64,000 bases of DNA. Source: Hyalangium gracile (GTDB lineage Bacteria > Myxococcota > Myxococcia > Myxococcales > Myxococcaceae). The notes under the pieces were generated by a model. The model ran no database searches, was not told the DNA's origin, and worked only from the letters and a program-made list of their open reading frames with translations. Shown here one piece after another: positions 1,430 through 14,721 of the stretch. The translations under genes and the position numbers were made by a program. The stretch is from assembly GCF_020103725.1 (NCBI RefSeq), contig NZ_JAHXBG010000013.1:1-64000 (forward strand), read 5' to 3'. The first letter of the stretch is position 1, and each line of letters opens with the position of its first letter.

Positions 1430-4390
1430 ATGAAGAAGCTGCTGTTCGTCGTGGCATGGGCCCTGGCCGCCGTGGCCTGTGCTCCCGCCAGCTCCCCCGA
1501 GCCACCCCCCGTCATCCAGGATCCGAATCCGGAGCCGCCGCCACCCCCGCCGCCGCCACCCCCGCCGCCACCCCCGCCGCCGCCACCCCCGCCACCGCCG
1601 CCCGTCGTGGTCGCCCCGTTCGACCCGATCGCCTCTCCCATGGTCGTCCCCGCACCGAACGATCTGTTCGTCGATCCAACGACGGGCCTGATCAACGGGC
1701 CCATCGACTCCAGCGCCACCGCGGCACAGCAGGAGTTTACTCGGGACTACCTCAATACCCTCAACGGCGCTCCCACCCGCGTCACGGTGGGCACGAAGCT
1801 CGTCGACCTGGACAGGACCACGGTGACTGTCTCGACGGTGAAGTTCATCGATCTGCTGGAGGGCACGCCCATCGCCACGCCACCCGTCACGCCGACCGTG
1901 GCTTACGACGAGGACACCGACCAACTCACCCTCGCACCGCCTGCCGGCGGCTGGCCCAAGGGAGGCCGGTACGCCGTGGCGCTCATCGCGGGCGAGGCGG
2001 GCTTGAAGGGGCTGGGCGGCAAGGCGCTGGTGGGCTCGCCGATGTGGGAGCTCGTCTCCCAGCGGACGCCGCTCGTCACCTGTGACGATCTGAAGTCTCC
2101 GGACTGCGCGCTCGCCACGGACAAGATCCCCTCGGACAAGGTGGAGCCCGCCGAGCGCCTCGAGGAACAGCTCGCCCGAGCGCTGCGACTCGAGGACCTG
2201 CGCCGCGCCTACAAGCCGCTGCTGGATTCCATCGCGGAGCAGGGGGTGAATCGCGGCGACATCGTGCTGCTGTGGACCTTCCGCATCATGAACCACCCGG
2301 AGGTGACGTTCGATCCCGCCACCGGCGTCATGCCCTTCCCCAACGATCTGCTGCTGCTGCGCAACCCGGATGGCTCCGCGCACCTGAACCTGCCAATACC
2401 GCCCAATGCCCCGCCCTCGCAGGTGCAGCTCATCCAGGGCCTGAACACGCTGGATGGCTTCTCCACCACGGCGCCCATCCTCTCGGAGAACAGCGACGTG
2501 CGAGGGGCCCTCGACACCGGCCGCGTGGACGCGACGAGCCTGGCAGCGGGCACGAGGATCCTCAAGCTGACGCCAGGTGGCACGGCCCCCAACGTGAAGG
2601 CGTGCATCGACTGCGCCTCGAGCCGGAACCCGGACGGCACCCTCCCGAACAACCCGCAGCAACTGCAGCTCGTGCCGCAGGTGCCGCTGGACGGGCAGTC
2701 CACCTACGTGGCCACGGTGACGACGGACCTGAAGGACGAGCGGGGCCGGCACGTGGCGCCCACGGTGGTGTTCGCGCTGTTGCGCCTGAGCCACCCGTTG
2801 GTGGTGGACGGCAAGAGCCAGGTGACCGGAGTCTCGGACCTGCAGGCCCAGACGCTCGAGCCGCTCCGCGCGGGGCTCGCGGCGACGCTCGACACGCTGG
2901 CGGAGCAGGGGATGCCGCGCTCGAAGCTCGCGCTGGCATGGGCGTTCACCACGCAGAGCACGGTGTCCACGCTCCAGAAGATACACGCGCTGCCGGCAGC
3001 CGTGTACGGCCCCGCGGGCCTCCCCAACCAGCCGCTCTACCTGGTCGACATCACGACGCAGCTCAAGGCGCAGCTGGCGGCGCAAGGCCTCTCCAGCGAC
3101 AACATCGGCAAGGCCTTCCAGGGCGCGCTCTTCCTGCCCTTCGCGCTGACGGGGAGCGGGGGGACCCTGAACCCCGCCCAGCCTCGGTTCGATCGCGTTC
3201 CGTTCCTGCTGACACTGCCAGGCGCCAGCACGCCAGCGCAGGGCTACCCCATCACCCTCTTCAGCCACGGGTTCATGGGCAGCCGCGACAGCGTGCTCCC
3301 CCTGCTCGATGCGCTGGCGGGGGCAGGGCGCGCGACCGTCGCGGTGGATGCCGTCTTCCATGGTGACCGCAGCAGCTGCGCGGGTATCACCGCGGCCGCG
3401 GGCCTCATGGATCCGAGCAATGGGCTCCCCATCGACACTCCCGACAAGGCCTGCGCCACGGGGACGTGCGACACGGTCGCGGGCAGTCCCTCGTATGGAC
3501 GCTGCATCTCCGCCACACGGAGCGCCTGTGATCCGTCTTCCGCGGCGGCGGTTCCTGGCGACTTCGTGTGCGCTCAGGCGAACCAGGGCCGCTGCCTGTC
3601 GACGAGCCTGACGGACCCCACACAGGGGGTCTGCGAGGGAGGGAGCTTCAAGGGCGGCTCCGGCATGCCGTACATCTCCGGCTGGAACTTCATCGACATG
3701 TCCAACCTGTTCGCGATGCGCGACAACTTCCGCCAGGGCACCCTCGATCACGCGCAGCTCGCGCGCGTGCTCGAGGCGGGAGGGCTCGACACCCTGCTCG
3801 CGGCGCGGGGGGCTGGGAAGCTCGATGGCACGCGGATCGACTACCTGGGCCAGAGCCTCGGGGGCCTCCTGGGAAGTCTCTACACCTCCGTATCACCGGA
3901 CGTCCGGCACGTGGTGCTCAATGTCCCAGGCGGAGACCTGACCCAGCTGCTGCTGACCTCTCCCTCCTTCGTCAGCACGCGCGTCCGCTTCCTGGAAGGC
4001 CTTGCTGCCCAGGGCATCCAGCAGGGCACGCCGGTCTTCGATCGGTACCTCGGGTACTCCCGGATGATCCTCGACCCGGCCGATCCCGTGAACTACGCCT
4101 ATCACGTGGAGAACGGGGCCGCCGTTCCCGAGGGCCGCGAGGCGCTCATCCAATCCATCGACCAGGATCAGGTCGTCCCCAACCCGACGACCGAGGCGCT
4201 CATCTCCGCCGCCAACCGGGCCAGCGACAACAAGAAGAAGGTGACGGCCTTCAAGTTCACGTTCGACACGGTGCAGCTGCCACCCTCACAGCGCCACGGC
4301 TTCCTGAGCTCCCCCAATGTCCCGCCAGAGATCCGCAGTCAGGCTCAGAGCCAGGCGATCGGGTTCCTGGACACCGGAGGCCTCCCGTAG
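1430..4390 (+). CDS. Lipoprotein alpha/beta-hydrolase (lipase-like) with polyproline linker
   Basis: 986 aa. The N-terminus MKKLLFVVAWALAAVAC is a lipoprotein-type signal with the modified Cys at 17. It is followed by 23 consecutive proline codons (about 1534-1602), which probably form a stiff spacer away from the membrane. The long middle region resembles the N-terminal part of bacterial extracellular lipases. The hydrolase fold begins near residue 605 with the oxyanion motif FSHGF (His613-Gly614). The nucleophile elbow is GQSLGG with Ser809; a candidate acid lies in DQDQVVPN (about 912) and a candidate His in QRHGF (about 955). A Cys-rich insertion sits between 650 and 735. The start follows GGAAGG. 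The substrate cannot be read from sequence; esterase or lipase activity is the likely class. A dispersed repeat begins within 10 bases of the stop. Confidence 0.85.
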   Translation: MKKLLFVVAWALAAVACAPASSPEPPPVIQDPNPEPPPPPPPPPPPPPPPPPPPPPPPVVVAPFDPIASPMVVPAPNDLFVDPTTGLINGPIDSSATAAQQEFTRDYLNTLNGAPTRVTVGTKLVDLDRTTVTVSTVKFIDLLEGTPIATPPVTPTVAYDEDTDQLTLAPPAGGWPKGGRYAVALIAGEAGLKGLGGKALVGSPMWELVSQRTPLVTCDDLKSPDCALATDKIPSDKVEPAERLEEQLARALRLEDLRRAYKPLLDSIAEQGVNRGDIVLLWTFRIMNHPEVTFDPATGVMPFPNDLLLLRNPDGSAHLNLPIPPNAPPSQVQLIQGLNTLDGFSTTAPILSENSDVRGALDTGRVDATSLAAGTRILKLTPGGTAPNVKACIDCASSRNPDGTLPNNPQQLQLVPQVPLDGQSTYVATVTTDLKDERGRHVAPTVVFALLRLSHPLVVDGKSQVTGVSDLQAQTLEPLRAGLAATLDTLAEQGMPRSKLALAWAFTTQSTVSTLQKIHALPAAVYGPAGLPNQPLYLVDITTQLKAQLAAQGLSSDNIGKAFQGALFLPFALTGSGGTLNPAQPRFDRVPFLLTLPGASTPAQGYPITLFSHGFMGSRDSVLPLLDALAGAGRATVAVDAVFHGDRSSCAGITAAAGLMDPSNGLPIDTPDKACATGTCDTVAGSPSYGRCISATRSACDPSSAAAVPGDFVCAQANQGRCLSTSLTDPTQGVCEGGSFKGGSGMPYISGWNFIDMSNLFAMRDNFRQGTLDHAQLARVLEAGGLDTLLAARGAGKLDGTRIDYLGQSLGGLLGSLYTSVSPDVRHVVLNVPGGDLTQLLLTSPSFVSTRVRFLEGLAAQGIQQGTPVFDRYLGYSRMILDPADPVNYAYHVENGAAVPEGREALIQSIDQDQVVPNPTTEALISAANRASDNKKKVTAFKFTFDTVQLPPSQRHGFLSSPNVPPEIRSQAQSQAIGFLDTGGLP

Positions 4391-4398
4391 CTGCCTGG

Positions 4399-4505
4399 CC
4401 TGGCGCACTTTCTGCGAACTGGTCTGCTTGTCATACCAGTTGGGCACCGGTCCGCTCACAGGGGACCTCCGTGGCCAGGCAGTGGCCTTGCCACGGGAGC
4501 CTCCC
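4399..4505 (+). repeat. Dispersed intergenic repeat, copy 1 (structured)
   Basis: About 107 nt, nearly identical to 11346-11453 and 14614-14721. Two inverted repeats are visible. AACTGGT pairs with ACCAGTT around an 11-nt loop, and CTCCGTGGC pairs with GCCACGGGAG with one bulge. This copy starts just after the hydrolase stop codon and lacks the 5-prime extension shared by copies 2 and 3. It may be a small RNA, a 3-prime-end element or a MITE; no function is known to me. Confidence 0.85.
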
Positions 4506-4578: not shown

Positions 4579-4602
4579 CCGACATGACGGCTGTCATGTC
4601 GG
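4579..4602 (+). promoter_or_regulatory. Probable enhancer (UAS) of the 4794 kinase promoter
   Basis: A perfect 10-bp inverted repeat, CCGACATGAC and GTCATGTCGG, separated by 4 bases. It lies 77 bp upstream of the sigma54-type promoter at 4680. Its right half, GCTGTCATGTCGG (4590-4602), is repeated exactly upstream of the peptide gene on the other strand (8851-8839), in the same orientation relative to that promoter. This is the classic layout of a binding site for a sigma54 activator; the likely binder is the protein encoded at 8904-10496 (inference). Confidence 0.6.
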
Positions 4603-4679
4603 ATCGGCTCCGGCGGCATGCTTCCCAGCAGCCGCCTGGCGCAGCTCCGCTCTCGCTTGCCCGAAAGGGCACTCGTGGG

Positions 4680-4695
4680 TGGCACCTGTCTTGCT
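4680..4695 (+). promoter_or_regulatory. Sigma54-type promoter of the 4794 kinase gene
   Basis: TGGCACCTGTCTTGCT matches the -24/-12 consensus TGGCAC-N5-TTGCW, with the invariant GG and GC at the required 10-nt spacing. Transcription would start near 4707 and give a leader of about 87 nt. Confidence 0.7.
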
Positions 4696-4793
4696 CTATG
4701 AACCGGAGGCTTGACGATGGCCGGGCAGCCCCTGCCATCCCTTGCCGCAACTCCACGAGCGGCAACCGAACGTAGCTGTTGGGGGGAGGCTGT

Positions 4794-7700
4794 ATGCATG
4801 ACGCGCGCGAGGAAGACCTCGAGGTTGCGCTGAAGAGGGGTTTCATCTCACCGGCTGAAGTGGATGCCTTGCGTGAGGAGTCCCGTGCCAAGGCTCGCAG
4901 CCCCCTGCAGCTGCTGCACGAACGGGGCATCATCTCCGAGGAGACGCTCCTCGGGCTCCTGCAAGACAGGCTGGAGACGCCGGAACTGCGCAAGCCGAAC
5001 CCGTCCGAGGCGGACACCCTGCCGCCAGGCTCGGCTCGCGGCCCCGGCGCGCCAGCGGATGTGGCCTTCCCTGTCCCCGGCTGGGAGCGCTATCAGTTCG
5101 TCAGGCTGCTGGGCCAGGGGGGCATGGGACAGGTGTTCCTCGCGTATGATCCGCGCCTGCACCGCAACGTGGCCCTCAAGTTCGTCCGCGGGCAGAGCAC
5201 GGAGCTCGTCAGCCGGCTGATCTCCGAGGCTCGCGCCCAGGCCCGCGTCCAGCACGAGAGCGTCTGTCATGTGCACGAGGTGGGCGAGGTTCAGGGGCTC
5301 CCGTACATCGCCATGCAGCACGTGAACGGGCAGCCGCTGAGCTCCTTCACCGGTAGGCTCACCGTGGCCCAGCAGGCCATGCTCGTGCGCGACGCGGCCC
5401 TGGGCATCCATGCCGCCCACGAGGCGGGGCTCATCCACCGCGACATCAAGCCCTCCAACATCCTCGTCGAGCAGGCCGCGGATGGCCGACTCCATCCCTA
5501 CGTGGTGGACTTCGGCCTGGCACGCGATTGGCGGGCCAAGGGGCTCACCGAGACGGGGGCGGTGCTCGGCACTCCCCACTTCATGGCTCCGGAGCAGGCT
5601 CGCGGCGAGGTGAAACGCCTGGACTGGCGGGCCGACGTCTACAGCCTGGGCGCGACGTTCTACCAGCTGCTGACGGGCAAGCTGCCTGTCCCCGGTGAGA
5701 ATGCCCTGGAGGTGCTCAACCACATCGCTACCGTGGACCCGCAGCCTCCGCGCGCCATCGATCCCCGCATCCCCCAGGATCTCGAAGCCATCGTCCTCAA
5801 GTGTCTGGAGAAGGAGCGCTCGGCCCGCTACGACTCGATGCTCGCCCTGATCGAGGATCTGGACCGCTTCCTCGCGGGCGAGCCCGTCAAGGCGCGCTCC
5901 ACCGGTCTTCGCTACCAGCTGTACAAGAAGGCCCGGAAGCACCGGCGCATGGTGGCCGTGGCCGCGGTGGCGCTGCTGGCCGTCACCGGCGCGCTGGGGT
6001 GGGCGGGATACACGCGCCGCCAGGCGCTCCAACGCGAGGAGTTCACGCGCCGCTTCACGACGAGGATCGAGCGCATCGAATCCCTGGCCCGCCTCGATGC
6101 GCTCGCTCCCATCCATGACGCGAGCAGGCTGCGTGGGGAGCTTCACGCGCAGGTGATGGCGTTGGAGGCGGAGATCCACGAAGCGGGGCCCCTGGCGGTG
6201 GGGGCGGGGTACTACGCGCAGGGCTGCGGCTATCTGGCGCTCGGCGAGGAAGAGAAGGCCCTGGAGAAGCTGCAGGCCGCATGGGCCGCCGACTTCCGGG
6301 AGCCACGGGTGGCCCTCGCTCTGGCCCGGGTGATGAGCAAGCTGTACCGCAGGGAGCGTCTCGAGGCGGCGCGGCTGTCCGTTCAGCAGGGACGGACCGA
6401 GCCGGCGCTGGACGCGTCGCGGCTGCTCGAGAGCCCTTACCGTCGAGGCGCCATGGATTACCTCGCGCTGAGCGAGGAGGCGGATGGCTTCTCTCCCGCT
6501 TGGGGGAGCGCGCTGATCGCTTTCTATGATGAAGACTTCGATGCGGCCCTGAAGTGGCTCGACGCGATGCAGGCCCCAGCGCCCTGGCAATACGAAGCGT
6601 TTCAGCTCCGGGGAGACATCCTCCGGGTCCGTGCGGCCCGGCTCGTGGCGGCAGGCGACTTCGAGAAGGCCCGGAAGGACTTCGATGGCGGCCGCCAGGC
6701 CTACTCCTCCGCCGAGGAGATCGGCCGTAGCGAGCTGGCCATCCCCCTGGCCCAGGCGGAGCTGGAGCTCACGCAGCTGATCATGGAGATCCATCACAAG
6801 GGCCACACGGAGGAGTGCTTCCGGCGCGGAAGGGCTGCCATCTCGCGCGCGTTGCTGATCGCGCCAGCGTCCGTCGAGGCCTTGCTCCTGGACGCCCAGC
6901 TGCACCAGCGCCTGGCGGAGCACAAGCTCAACGCGGGCAGCTACGCCGAGGCAGGTGCGCTCATCGAGCATGCCCTCGCCACCGCCCGGAAGGCCCACGC
7001 CCAGGCGCCGCGCGTCCACCTGGAGCTGGCACAGGTGCTCATCCTCCAAGGACGACTCCTCGCCCTCACGCACCAGCCTCCGGGCACTCCGCTCACCCAG
7101 GCGCTCGAGCTGCTCGATCAGGTGAAGGAGAAGGACCGCGATGCCAGCTACATGCACCAGCGCGGCCTGCTCTTCGCCTCCTGGGCCGAATACGGGACCG
7201 GCTCCGAGAGCACGGCTTCCCATCTCGACCATGCCATCGATGCCTTTCGTCAGGCGACCGTGCTCGATGGCGAGCTACGTCCAGCCTGGACCAACCTGGC
7301 GAAGAACCTCCTCAGGCGAGAGCGGCGCCAGGACGTCAAGGAGCCGGAGGAAGACCTGAAGCGGGCTCAGCAAGCCGTCGAGAAGGCCATGGCCCTGGGC
7401 TCTCAGGACCACGTGGTCCATTACTATGCAGGCAAGGTTCATGAGAGGAAGGCGGCGCGGATCCTGGTCCGGGGGGGCGATGCCCAAGCGGAGTGGCAAG
7501 GCGCGCGCGCGGCGTACGAGCGTGCGATTCGCATCAATGCTCGGGAGCCCTATCTCCATGACTGCCTGGGGGCCGTGCTCAATGAGCTGGCACGCGAGGA
7601 GTGGAGGCACGCGCGTGAGCCATTTTCGCTCCTGAATCAAGCGCAGTCCAGCTATGAAAAGGCCTACGGGCTGAATCCCCAGTTCACCAGTGCCCTCAGC

Positions 7701-8306
7701 AACGTCAGTGATACATGGGTCCTGCGCGCGCTCTATCAATCCGAGCGGGGCGAGTCACCCGAGGCCAGCCTCCTGGCGGCACGCTCCGCGCTGACACTCG
7801 CGCACGAGCAATCCCCGTCGGCCTGGTGGATCCAGGCCAACCTGGGAGCCGTTCATGTCCTGATGGGGGCTTTCGAGCTGAGCCAGGAGCGCGATCCCTC
7901 TCAGAGCCTGCGGCTCGCCGAGGACACCCTCCGCGCGGCGTTGGCTGGCACGCAAGACGATCCGCAGATCTGGCGCTACCGCGGGCAGCTTCGGGGCCTC
8001 CAGGCCCGTTGGCGGCTCCACCTGGGCCAGCGCCAGAATCTGGATGAAGACTTCGCGCAGGCGGTGAGTGACTTCCAGCGGGCCCTCGAGCTCACGGACC
8101 GCACGCACGACACGCGGAAGACCGAGTACCTGCTTGCCTTTGGCCGGTTCTGCTGTGAATGGGCCTCGCTCGGGCTGGGTGAGAGCGCCAGGGAGGCTCA
8201 GCGGCTTGGGCTCCAGAAGCTGCAGGCCGTCTTGAAGGGCTCACCCCAGGTGCCGGGCACACTCGAACTCCGCCGGTGCTTGCGTGGAGCGGAGCCCGCC
8301 CCGTAG
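4794..8306 (+). CDS. Membrane Ser/Thr protein kinase with TPR-rich C-terminus
   Basis: 1170 aa from ATG 4794, preceded by GGGGGGAGG. A TTG five codons upstream is less likely. After an N-terminal helical segment, a complete Hanks-type kinase domain spans about residues 98-365: glycine loop LGQGGMG, Lys129 in VALK, HRD at 215-217, DFG at 239-241 and an APE motif. A transmembrane helix follows (about 383-403). The remaining 770 residues are helical with TPR-like repeats and would face the other side of the membrane or act as a scaffold. It probably phosphorylates regulatory proteins in response to an envelope or protein-interaction signal. The gene stands alone behind its own sigma54-type promoter and enhancer, which links it to the activator gene at 8904-10496. 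Confidence 0.9.
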   Translation: MHDAREEDLEVALKRGFISPAEVDALREESRAKARSPLQLLHERGIISEETLLGLLQDRLETPELRKPNPSEADTLPPGSARGPGAPADVAFPVPGWERYQFVRLLGQGGMGQVFLAYDPRLHRNVALKFVRGQSTELVSRLISEARAQARVQHESVCHVHEVGEVQGLPYIAMQHVNGQPLSSFTGRLTVAQQAMLVRDAALGIHAAHEAGLIHRDIKPSNILVEQAADGRLHPYVVDFGLARDWRAKGLTETGAVLGTPHFMAPEQARGEVKRLDWRADVYSLGATFYQLLTGKLPVPGENALEVLNHIATVDPQPPRAIDPRIPQDLEAIVLKCLEKERSARYDSMLALIEDLDRFLAGEPVKARSTGLRYQLYKKARKHRRMVAVAAVALLAVTGALGWAGYTRRQALQREEFTRRFTTRIERIESLARLDALAPIHDASRLRGELHAQVMALEAEIHEAGPLAVGAGYYAQGCGYLALGEEEKALEKLQAAWAADFREPRVALALARVMSKLYRRERLEAARLSVQQGRTEPALDASRLLESPYRRGAMDYLALSEEADGFSPAWGSALIAFYDEDFDAALKWLDAMQAPAPWQYEAFQLRGDILRVRAARLVAAGDFEKARKDFDGGRQAYSSAEEIGRSELAIPLAQAELELTQLIMEIHHKGHTEECFRRGRAAISRALLIAPASVEALLLDAQLHQRLAEHKLNAGSYAEAGALIEHALATARKAHAQAPRVHLELAQVLILQGRLLALTHQPPGTPLTQALELLDQVKEKDRDASYMHQRGLLFASWAEYGTGSESTASHLDHAIDAFRQATVLDGELRPAWTNLAKNLLRRERRQDVKEPEEDLKRAQQAVEKAMALGSQDHVVHYYAGKVHERKAARILVRGGDAQAEWQGARAAYERAIRINAREPYLHDCLGAVLNELAREEWRHAREPFSLLNQAQSSYEKAYGLNPQFTSALSNVSDTWVLRALYQSERGESPEASLLAARSALTLAHEQSPSAWWIQANLGAVHVLMGAFELSQERDPSQSLRLAEDTLRAALAGTQDDPQIWRYRGQLRGLQARWRLHLGQRQNLDEDFAQAVSDFQRALELTDRTHDTRKTEYLLAFGRFCCEWASLGLGESAREAQRLGLQKLQAVLKGSPQVPGTLELRRCLRGAEPAP

Positions 8307-8328
8307 CAGCCGCTGGGGTGACGCGGAG

Positions 8329-8354
8329 AGGCGCGAGGAGAGGGGCTCGCGCCT
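8329..8354. terminator. Stem-loop between convergent genes
   Basis: AGGCGCGAG and CTCGCGCCT form a perfect 9-bp stem around an 8-nt loop, between the stop of the kinase (8306) and the stop of the convergent peptide gene (8379). There is no T-tract, so it is either a non-canonical bidirectional terminator or only an RNA-stabilising hairpin. Confidence 0.5.
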
Positions 8355-8378
8355 GGGCGCTGACGGGGCTTGTGCGGC

Positions 8379-8651
8379 TCAGGAGGCTGCCGGATGCGTC
8401 ATCTCATTGGAATTCGGGGGGGGCTTGCTCGAGAGCGCCGCTGCGAGCTTGAGGCTGTGCTTCCGGAGGACGCCCACCAGCCCGTTGGGCTCGGTGGGGT
8501 TCTGGGTCTGCTGGTTGACCGCGAAGGCAGAGAGGATGAGCTTTCGGAGGAAGCCCACCAGCCCGTTGGGCTCCGTGGGGTTCTGGGTCGGGCGGTCGCT
8601 CGCGGAGGCGGAGTGGTTGTTCTCAGAAGCGGTTTGGGTGTCGTGACTCAT
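8379..8651 (-). CDS. Small repeat peptide of unknown function
   Basis: 90 aa, not recognised. A polar Ser/Thr/Asn-rich start is followed by two near-identical copies of NPTEPNGLVGFLRK (second copy NPTEPNGLVGVLRK), about 30 residues apart; each ends in a basic, hydrophobic stretch. There is no signal peptide or transmembrane helix. The start ATG (8651) lacks a strong Shine-Dalgarno sequence. A sigma54-like promoter (8756-8771) and enhancer (8839-8870) are correctly placed upstream, and the sigma54 activator gene lies immediately beyond on the same strand. This context is the main argument that the frame is real. It could be a signalling or modified (RiPP-like) peptide or a kinase substrate; none of these is shown. 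Confidence 0.6.
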   Translation of the reverse strand: MSHDTQTASENNHSASASDRPTQNPTEPNGLVGFLRKLILSAFAVNQQTQNPTEPNGLVGVLRKHSLKLAAALSSKPPPNSNEMTHPAAS

Positions 8652-8755
8652 GGGGTTGTCTCAGGGATTGAGGTTTTGTGACTCAGCCGTCGAGGGAGAG
8701 GGAATTCAAAGTGAACTCTCGGCTTGCGCCTCTCGACGACCTTGCAGGTTGTTTC

Positions 8756-8771
8756 TTCAACGGACGTGCCA
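8756..8771 (-). promoter_or_regulatory. Sigma54-like promoter of the small peptide gene
   Basis: On the minus strand TGGCACGTCCGTTGAA has a perfect -24 box (TGGCACG). The -12 box TTGA departs from TTGC at one base, with correct 10-nt spacing. The predicted start is near 8744, about 93 nt before the ATG at 8651. Confidence 0.55.
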
Positions 8772-8808
8772 CCCGCGGGAACGATTCCCCAGGGCGGGGA
8801 TGTCCGAA

Positions 8809-8824
8809 GCCCGACAAGTCGGGC
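8809..8824. promoter_or_regulatory. Palindrome between enhancer and promoter of the peptide gene
   Basis: GCCCGAC and GTCGGGC flank AA, giving a 7-bp-arm palindrome too tight for a hairpin but suitable as a dimeric protein-binding site. It sits 38 bp upstream of the -24 box. Its function is unproven. Confidence 0.4.
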
Positions 8825-8838
8825 CCGGAAACCGCGCG

Positions 8839-8870
8839 CCGACATGACAGCGCCGTGCCGGTGGCATGAC
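8839..8870 (-). promoter_or_regulatory. Probable enhancer (UAS) of the small peptide promoter
   Basis: On the minus strand this contains GCTGTCATGTCGG (8851-8839), identical to 13 bp upstream of the 4794 kinase promoter. A second half-site, GTCATGCC, lies 5-prime of it (8870-8863). It is 67 bp upstream of the -24 box, a normal position for a sigma54 enhancer. Confidence 0.55.
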
Positions 8871-8903
8871 GGAGCCGCGCCCGGGGCGCAGCCGGCGGGG
8901 GGC

Positions 8904-10496
8904 TCAGGGCCGTTGGAGTCCCAACTCCCGGAGTCGGCGGACGATGGCCCAGCGAGACATCCGGAGGCGCTGGACCATGCTGTCCATGTCGCCCTGGCAC
9001 TCCTCGTAGGTGCGGCTGAACTCTTCAGCGCTCAGGGTGGGGTTGACGTGCCGCTGGTACCACTCCTGCAACGAGGAGCGGGCCACGCCGAGCCGTGTCG
9101 CGGCTGATTTGATCTCCCAGCCGCAAGCCTCCAAGGCGGCGCTCAGCTCCTGCTCGGAGAAGTCCGAGACCTTGTGCTGGAGCGTGCTCTTCGGCTCGGG
9201 CGCGGGGGGCTCCACCGGGGGGGACACCCGGGGCGGCGCCGGAGGAGGAGCCAGCTCCTGCTCCAGCCGTGGGTCGAGCCGCAGTCCGCCGGGCTGCCCG
9301 CGGTTGCTGATGATGATCTGCCGCGTCAGGTTGCGCAGCTGACGGATGTTGCCAGGCCACGGGTAACGCACCAGCCACGAGGCCAGCGACGCCGGCAGCC
9401 ACGGCTCGCTCCAGCCTTCCGGGTTGCTCAGGCGGTGCGTCTCTCCAATGGCTTCCAGCTCCTCGCGCGCGAAGTGAAGGAAGAGCGGGCCGATGTCCTC
9501 GCGCCGCTCCCGGAGGGGCGGCACCCGGATCTCATACCCGGCCAGCCGGTGCAGCAGGGGGCCCTTGAAGCGGCCTTCCTGGATGAGCTTCTCCAGGTGT
9601 GCATCCGTGGCGGTCACCAGCCGCACGTCCGTGGGAACCGCGGTGGAGGAGCCCACCGGGAACATCTCCCGCTCCTCCAGCACCCGCAGCAGCATCACCT
9701 GCACCTCGGGAGAGGCCTCGCCCACCTCGTCCAGGAACAGCGTGCCGCCGTGGGCCGCGCGGAAGAGGCCCTCCCGGTCTCTCACCGCGCCGGAGTAGGC
9801 GCCCTTGACGGCTCCGAAGAGCTCCGCCGCCGCGAGCTCCTTCGGGAGCGCGCCCAGGTTGACGCTGATGAAGGGCCGGTCACGCCTCGGGCTGCGCCGG
9901 TAGAGCGCCTTGGCGATCAGCTCCTTGCCTGAGCCCGTCTCCCCTCGGATGAGCACGGGCACGTCCAGATCCGCGACGTGCTCGATGTCATTGCGCACGC
10001 GCTGCAGGCCCAGGCTGTTGCCCACCATGTCCAGCGCCTCCGCGCTGGCACGCGCCTGGGGGGCGGCCAGGTGCAGGAGCACCACCACCCGCTCGGCCAG
10101 CTCCAGCGGTACGCCCGTCGCCACCTCGACGGCGCTCAGCACCCGCGAGCCCCGCAGCGGCTCTCCCGCGATGGAGATCTTGCTCCCCTCGGGCGCCTCC
10201 AGGCAGAGGCTGCCCGCGGGCCCGGCGGAGAGCACCACGGGGTTGCGGCTCAGGAAGGGATCCGCCAGCGGCTCGGCCAGGCCCCCGTGGGGGTGCATGA
10301 AGTCCGGCTCGTTGCGGGAGAGCGCCACGGAGCGGCCCTCGGTCAGCTCATGCAACACCAGCCGCTGTCCCACGCGCCGGGGCACTGGATGCGAGACGAT
10401 GCTCAGCGCAGCCATGAGACGGGGTGGCTGCTTTTCACCAGGGGCCTGGTGCCAGTCGACCGTCGAAGCGTCCTCAGGACCCTTCTTCGTCATCAC
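8904..10496 (-). CDS. Sigma54-dependent transcriptional activator (FHA-like sensor, AAA+, two HTH)
   Basis: 530 aa. The N-terminal 140 residues resemble a divergent FHA domain, as in myxobacterial activators controlled by Ser/Thr kinases. The AAA+ domain has Walker A GETGSGKE (185-192), Walker B TLFLDE (about 252-257), and GAYSGA (232-237) where most family members have GAFTGA; this loop contacts sigma54. A Pro-rich linker leads to a Fis-type helix-turn-helix (about 448-482) and a second HTH-like segment (488-528). The start is GTG 10496 or ATG 10493, behind GGGAGAGGG. It should bind enhancers and open sigma54 promoters, and the two adjacent sigma54 promoters with a shared 13-bp site are the obvious targets. 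The neighbouring kinase may modulate it through the FHA-like domain (inference). Confidence 0.9.
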   Translation of the reverse strand: MMTKKGPEDASTVDWHQAPGEKQPPRLMAALSIVSHPVPRRVGQRLVLHELTEGRSVALSRNEPDFMHPHGGLAEPLADPFLSRNPVVLSAGPAGSLCLEAPEGSKISIAGEPLRGSRVLSAVEVATGVPLELAERVVVLLHLAAPQARASAEALDMVGNSLGLQRVRNDIEHVADLDVPVLIRGETGSGKELIAKALYRRSPRRDRPFISVNLGALPKELAAAELFGAVKGAYSGAVRDREGLFRAAHGGTLFLDEVGEASPEVQVMLLRVLEEREMFPVGSSTAVPTDVRLVTATDAHLEKLIQEGRFKGPLLHRLAGYEIRVPPLRERREDIGPLFLHFAREELEAIGETHRLSNPEGWSEPWLPASLASWLVRYPWPGNIRQLRNLTRQIIISNRGQPGGLRLDPRLEQELAPPPAPPRVSPPVEPPAPEPKSTLQHKVSDFSEQELSAALEACGWEIKSAATRLGVARSSLQEWYQRHVNPTLSAEEFSRTYEECQGDMDSMVQRLRMSRWAIVRRLRELGLQRP

Positions 10497-11308: not shown

Positions 11309-11453
11309 GAGTCCCACCGGCGACCGTGTCCGGTCCGTCCGCGTGCCTGGCGCACTTTCTGCGAACTGGTCTGCTTGTCATACCAGTTGGGAACCGGTCC
11401 GCTCACAGGGGACCTCCGTGGCCAGGCAGTGGCCTTGCCACGGGAGCCTCCCT
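11309..11453 (+). repeat. Dispersed intergenic repeat, copy 2 (long form)
   Basis: The 107-nt core (11346-11453) carries both stem-loops described for copy 1. It is preceded by a further 37 nt (GTCCCACCGGCGACCGTGTC and onward) that is shared with copy 3 but absent from copy 1. Confidence 0.85.
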
Positions 11454-14576: not shown

Positions 14577-14721
14577 GAGTCCCACCGGCGACCGTGTCCG
14601 GTCCGCCCGCGTGCCGGGCGCACTTTCTGCGAACTGGTCTGCTTGTCATACCAGTTGGGGACCGGTCCGCTCACAGGGGACCTCCGTGGCCAGGCAGGGG
14701 CCTTGTCACGGGAGCCTCCCT
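14577..14721 (+). repeat. Dispersed intergenic repeat, copy 3 (long form)
   Basis: Same 5-prime extension and core as copy 2. A change in the second stem (GCCAC to GTCAC) keeps base pairing through a G-U wobble, which is mild support for selection on RNA structure. The rest of the gap 14422-14777 shows no coding frame I can support. Confidence 0.85.

Follow-up and report, generated by a model that had tools for sequence, protein, structure and literature searches.

Kinases are abundant in myxobacteria, and to our knowledge the routes by which the Hanks-type enzymes reach transcription there are poorly mapped. Among described systems, the NtrB/NtrC-type two-component systems are autoregulated operons with dyad enhancers upstream of -24/-12 promoters. 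The locus considered here, in a 64,000-nt stretch of the Hyalangium gracile genome (the window), resembles them in having an apparently cognate pair of kinase and sigma54 activator, dyad enhancers and putative feedback on its own genes, but it has a Hanks-type Ser/Thr kinase and an FHA-like input domain instead of a histidine kinase and a receiver, and its genes are convergent and enclose a small output gene. A second point of reference is EmbR/PknH of Mycobacterium tuberculosis, in which, as in the window, an FHA-domain transcription factor is paired with a neighbouring Ser/Thr kinase. However, EmbR relies on ordinary polymerase and does not belong to the sigma54 AAA+ activators, and that system has neither an autoregulated kinase nor a small output gene in between. 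The EmbR structures 2ff4 and 2fez are among the Foldseek matches of the FHA model of our activator. Finally, Jelsbak, Givskov and Kaiser reportedly dealt in 2005 (PNAS 102:3010, cited in PMC12288465 and PMC6971385) with Myxococcus xanthus sigma54 enhancer-binding proteins that have an FHA domain, and these are said to have been proposed as a link from Ser/Thr phosphorylation to sigma54 transcription. The likeness would be that in both cases a myxobacterial sigma54 AAA+ activator carries an FHA-type N terminus. Apparently unlike those proteins, the activator in the window has a divergent FHA domain that Pfam does not recognise, carries two helix-turn-helix (HTH) segments, and is part of a kinase/output/activator module of stereotyped layout that has an enhancer of its own. 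Neither such a module nor the GACRYGTC motif discussed below was found described in literature searches; the same kinase and activator, with varying outputs, make up an apparently undescribed module of which related bacteria have dozens of copies.

We consider it likely that this locus is, as proposed in an earlier note on the sequence, a signalling module of kinase, sigma54 activator and output, and that it belongs to a series that recurs in myxobacteria. The activator is a sigma54-dependent enhancer-binding protein of 530 aa (8904-10496, minus strand; Pfam Sigma54_activat 3e-57, HTH_8 3e-7 at residues 445-477) and, as had been claimed, the only sigma54 activator found in the window. It has the hallmarks of a bEBP, with Walker A GETGSGKE and a GAYSGA loop (family variants GAFTGA, GAYTGA and GAYSGA), and is 84-85% identical to its Hyalangium versicolor orthologue (locus L035/L106). 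The HTH_8 match and the alignment place its two C-terminal HTH segments at 8919-9164 (minus strand); the second, HTH-like segment (...MVQRLRMSRWAIVRRLRELGL) was aligned over 70 proteins, and the first recognition helix reads ARSSLQEWYQRH in the window clade vs the common PRSSIYDLIDKS. The suggestion of an FHA-like domain was supported by AlphaFold2 and Foldseek, which put it at residues ~27-145 (10062-10418, minus strand). The model has a pLDDT of 83.5, and nearly all of the PDB matches listed are FHA domains (the top 42 with prob 1.00, the first six at TMt 0.69-0.78, the lowest E being 2.9e-4), so that the N terminus is predicted with good confidence to adopt an FHA fold. None of the 42 members has a Pfam FHA match, and a profile of the N-terminal domain found nothing among PDB sequences and Pfam. 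Across 35 sequences there is no variation at Arg61, Ser83 and Arg84, which stand at what the sequence suggests are the expected places. Phosphothreonine binding is nonetheless uncertain, because the SRxH histidine is replaced and the usual NG asparagine is not evident.

The kinase (4794-8306, plus strand) probably starts at ATG 4794, following GGGGGGAGG; the start in the ORF list is TTG 4779. It is a Hanks-type enzyme (Pfam Pkinase 7e-37) with HRDIKPSN and DFG intact, motifs found as HRDxKPxN and DFG in all 52 family kinases, and it has a TPR-like C-terminal half separated from the kinase domain by a probable transmembrane helix, as read from the sequence. It is 75% identical to its H. versicolor orthologue.

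The earlier note had also described two sigma54 promoters with a common enhancer sequence. The -24/-12 element of the kinase gene, TGGCACCTGTCTTGCT, does lie at 4680-4695 (+), with a predicted start at ~4706, and that of the peptide gene, TGGCACGTCCGTTGAA, at 8771-8756 (-), with GA replacing GC in its -12 element, the GA being conserved, and a predicted start at ~8744 (-). At one mismatch, TGGCAC-N5-TTGC occurs in the window at chance frequency (5 matches vs 4.72 expected). The 13-mer GCTGTCATGTCGG is present exactly at 4590-4602 (+) and at 8851-8839 (-), 77 bp from the -24 element of the kinase gene and 67 bp from that of the peptide gene, a 10-bp difference. Far from being common genome-wide, it has just these two exact copies in the 11.73-Mb genome, where a random 13-mer would be expected ~0.35 times. 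Real as the sequence is, the element is not the 13-mer as such but a dyad on one side and a half-site cluster on the other. At the kinase gene the 13-mer is the right arm of enhancer 1, a 24-bp dyad at 4579-4602 (+) with perfect 10-bp arms and a 4-bp spacer (CCGACATGAC-N4-GTCATGTCGG). At the peptide gene it is accompanied by weaker half-sites, forming enhancer 2 (8839-8872, minus strand), a cluster of CCGTCATGCC-N14-GTCATGTCGG with CCGGCACGGC in between.

Comparison with the orthologous locus of H. versicolor establishes that both promoters and both enhancers are conserved, as befits an enhancer common to the two. The 24-bp dyad is letter-identical there amid diverged flanks (~54-70% identical), and the kinase promoter is kept as TGGCACATGGGTTGCT (TGGCAC/TTGCT element) at a longer distance from the dyad, 135 bp. 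On the peptide side, TGTCATGTCGG and TGGCACGYCSGTTGAA are retained upstream, the promoter is kept as TGGCACGCCGGTTGAA, and enhancer 2 is 88% identical vs 54% in adjoining sequence. Among 59 genomes of relatives, the dyad occurs with 0 mismatches in only 2, both with the orthologous activator and the only two that carry the window's activator clade; the absence of the exact 24-mer from the others bears out the idea that the site is tied to this activator. A search of the H. gracile genome for a wider regulon, at up to 2 mismatches to the dyad, found no place besides 4579-4602.

The output gene (8379-8651, minus strand) encodes a 90-aa peptide in which TQNPTEPNGLVG[FV]LRK occurs twice and some segments look amphipathic. 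The repeat noted earlier in this peptide is real, and consists of ~50 bp, near-identical between 8460-8509 and 8541-8590, 81 bp apart and in frame. The peptide has no match in Pfam or NCBIfam; its best match among relatives, and its sole clear relative, is the H. versicolor orthologue (E 0.009), which has 86 aa, an orthologous start and stop, and a length change that is a multiple of three. Divergence between the two ORFs is almost equal across codon positions and, judged by this alignment, the peptide is fast-evolving, poorly constrained and lineage-specific. The 5′ leader of its mRNA (8652-8744, minus strand), where the H. versicolor comparison and RNA folding predict a stem-loop (fold z = -1.91), is 81% identical between the two species vs 60% for the peptide ORF.

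The activator is one of 7 close paralogues in its own genome, in a family with ~50 members in Myxococcaceae relatives; a profile search of genome contigs, with a 10-row alignment subset as query, added more distant relatives in Polyangium and Acidobacteriota. A convergent kinase lies downstream of the activator, usually 330-700 bp away, at 36 of 42 loci and is missing at the other 6, and kinase genes are found near the activator in the Acidobacteriota relatives too. The family kinases are similar over most of their length (~40-50% identity), and for 52 of them the kinase and activator distance matrices correlate at r = 0.875, a value reached in 0 of 2000 permutations, part of which comes from the shared ancestry of orthologues, within-genome paralogues being included as well. 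Judged by these matrices, kinase and activator are inherited together. In general, related loci and genomes inflate raw p-values, and clade-level counts are safer. Most loci have a small output gene between kinase and activator, on the activator strand, and the window locus has this same layout of a convergent pair with a small gene between. The outputs include Thr/Gly-rich or low-complexity peptides (36-67 aa), lipoprotein-like proteins (~165-190 aa) and cytosolic-looking proteins (112-150 aa). A C-terminal G-x-[LIV]-[DE]-V is present in 25 of 56 candidate output ORFs vs 2 of 56 with the C terminus reversed; the window peptide is without this motif, common as it is in the outputs of other modules. 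One related output protein, modelled with moderate confidence (pLDDT 66), resembles cupredoxins, a likeness that is suggestive.

A sigma54 promoter before the family kinases was considered as a general feature and rejected: none was found for most of these genes, and promoters with enhancer sites precede the kinase only in the window clade and in Archangium L119/L134. In L081/L083 the kinase is preceded by dyad arms, with no recognisable -24/-12 element. Of the earlier picture, in which sigma54 drives both kinase and output, the putative control of the output is common in the family, whereas that of the kinase is confined to these two clades.

The enhancers of the family follow a recognisable code. 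In the first 170 nt past the activator stop codon, GACACGTC turns up at 20 of 70 loci (0.47 expected), and the near-palindromic GACRYGTC is found near that stop at 26 of 70 (1.1 expected), representing 9 of 21 activator clades. In the remaining 12 of 21 clades it is not recognisable downstream of the activator, in part because hardly any sequence separates the activator stop codon from the output gene. Paired GACRYGTC sites are mostly spaced 21-22, 31-32 or 42-43 bp apart. The 22-bp pair, GACRYGTC-N14-GACRYGTC, has 34 sites in the 59 genomes vs 2 for a reversed-pattern control; of the 14 genomes in which it occurs, 13 also carry the activator family. Distances from enhancer to promoter cluster at ~41, 51, 62, 71 and 82 bp; a period scan gives 10.5 bp as best (R = 0.64), and with roughly one value per clade only 1 of 20,000 uniform draws was as good. 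Such spacing is what one would expect if the activator has to sit on one helix face. Both promoters of the window locus combine a -24/-12 element with an upstream site at this helical phasing. The half-site of the window clade, GACATGAC, departs from the family GACRYGTC, and the recognition helix is changed too. Such comparisons establish a tie between the two families, of enhancers and of activators, and suggest that the dyads are bound by the activator itself.

The earlier note took the module to be self-contained. Related dyads are also found away from the modules, both among relatives and within the H. gracile genome itself, so that taken as a whole the family is not strictly self-contained. 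A -24/-12 element lies 30-110 bp downstream of 10 of 24 unlinked dyads, as against 4% of random places, and the genes that follow include those for an MscS-like channel, lipoproteins and enzymes. Three relatives (L163, L165 and L177) have the dyad in front of a gene for an MscS-type mechanosensitive channel, suggesting that this channel gene may be a conserved unlinked target. In the own genome, three GACAYGTC sites at 2868-2972 of L160 (contig C5) are followed ~52 bp downstream by a perfect sigma54 promoter, TGGCACGTACGTTGCT; after a short interval comes a convergent RNase-T2-like gene, and the transcript could possibly be a small RNA or carry an ORF of very few codons.

In operation, the membrane-spanning kinase would sense a signal, presumably through its C-terminal TPR half, and would probably turn the activator on by phosphorylating it or a partner, the FHA-like domain reading the phosphorylation; this direction, from kinase to activator by way of the FHA-like domain, is one that we infer from sequence. 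The activator would bind the dyad half-sites, GACRYGTC in many clades and GACATGAC/GTCATGTC in the window clade, and once bound would drive sigma54 RNA polymerase at the output-gene promoter, the 90-aa peptide presumably being the output here. In the window clade and in Archangium L119/L134 the kinase gene would itself be a target, giving a positive feedback by which the signal reinforces itself.

The same wiring could be real even if the kinase does not control the activator, being instead an independent neighbour with other targets, next to an FHA-like domain that is degenerate or used for oligomerisation. The general abundance of kinases in myxobacteria, the 6 loci with no kinase neighbour, an FHA domain unseen by Pfam and a phosphothreonine pocket whose residues are only partly retained all lend something to this reading, but the convergent kinase at the other 36 loci, its counterparts near the activator in Acidobacteriota and the matched kinase and activator distances make it unlikely. 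A more radical objection, that a different regulator recognises the 13-mer or that it was duplicated by chance, beside promoters that match the consensus coincidentally, can draw on the chance frequency of one-mismatch -24/-12 matches in the window. It is hard to square with the retention of 13-mer and dyad in H. versicolor, the confinement of the dyad to genomes with the window activator, the helical phasing, and the way in which similar sites accompany the activator gene across the family, and we regard it as very improbable.

The product of the peptide transcription unit raises a separate question, since the leader is better conserved than the ORF and its stem looks conserved, and since the unlinked dyad and promoter at L160 leave only a very short interval before the convergent gene. 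A small RNA or regulated leader, and not the 90-aa peptide, might thus be what functions, but the orthologous start and stop with a length difference that is a multiple of three, and the clear proteins encoded at this position in other modules, many with C-terminal GxL[DE]V, render that rather improbable. We give a still slimmer chance to the idea that the output peptides, often Thr-rich, are substrates of the kinase and, once phosphorylated, bind the FHA-like domain of the activator, making a private loop of each module. Were such private phosphothreonine loops to exist, a half-site and recognition-helix pair of its own for each module would limit cross-talk among the copies in a genome. On the preferred reading, a recurrent signalling module of kinase, activator and output, the locus names a kinase, an activator, a DNA site and a target gene together, in a layout that recurs dozens of times with paralogous specificities, and therefore makes insulation from kinase to transcription directly testable. 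The enhancer motif, moreover, is a handle for regulon prediction in an otherwise uncharacterised activator family.

Elsewhere in the window, a dispersed repeat (+) has a 36-bp core that is identical at 4409-4444, 11356-11391 and 14624-14659, and the ~100 bp around each copy look alike as well. The gene at 1430-4390 (+) encodes a VolA/Pla-1-like phospholipase or lipase, scoring below the NCBIfam cut-off, in which a long poly-proline stretch follows the signal sequence.
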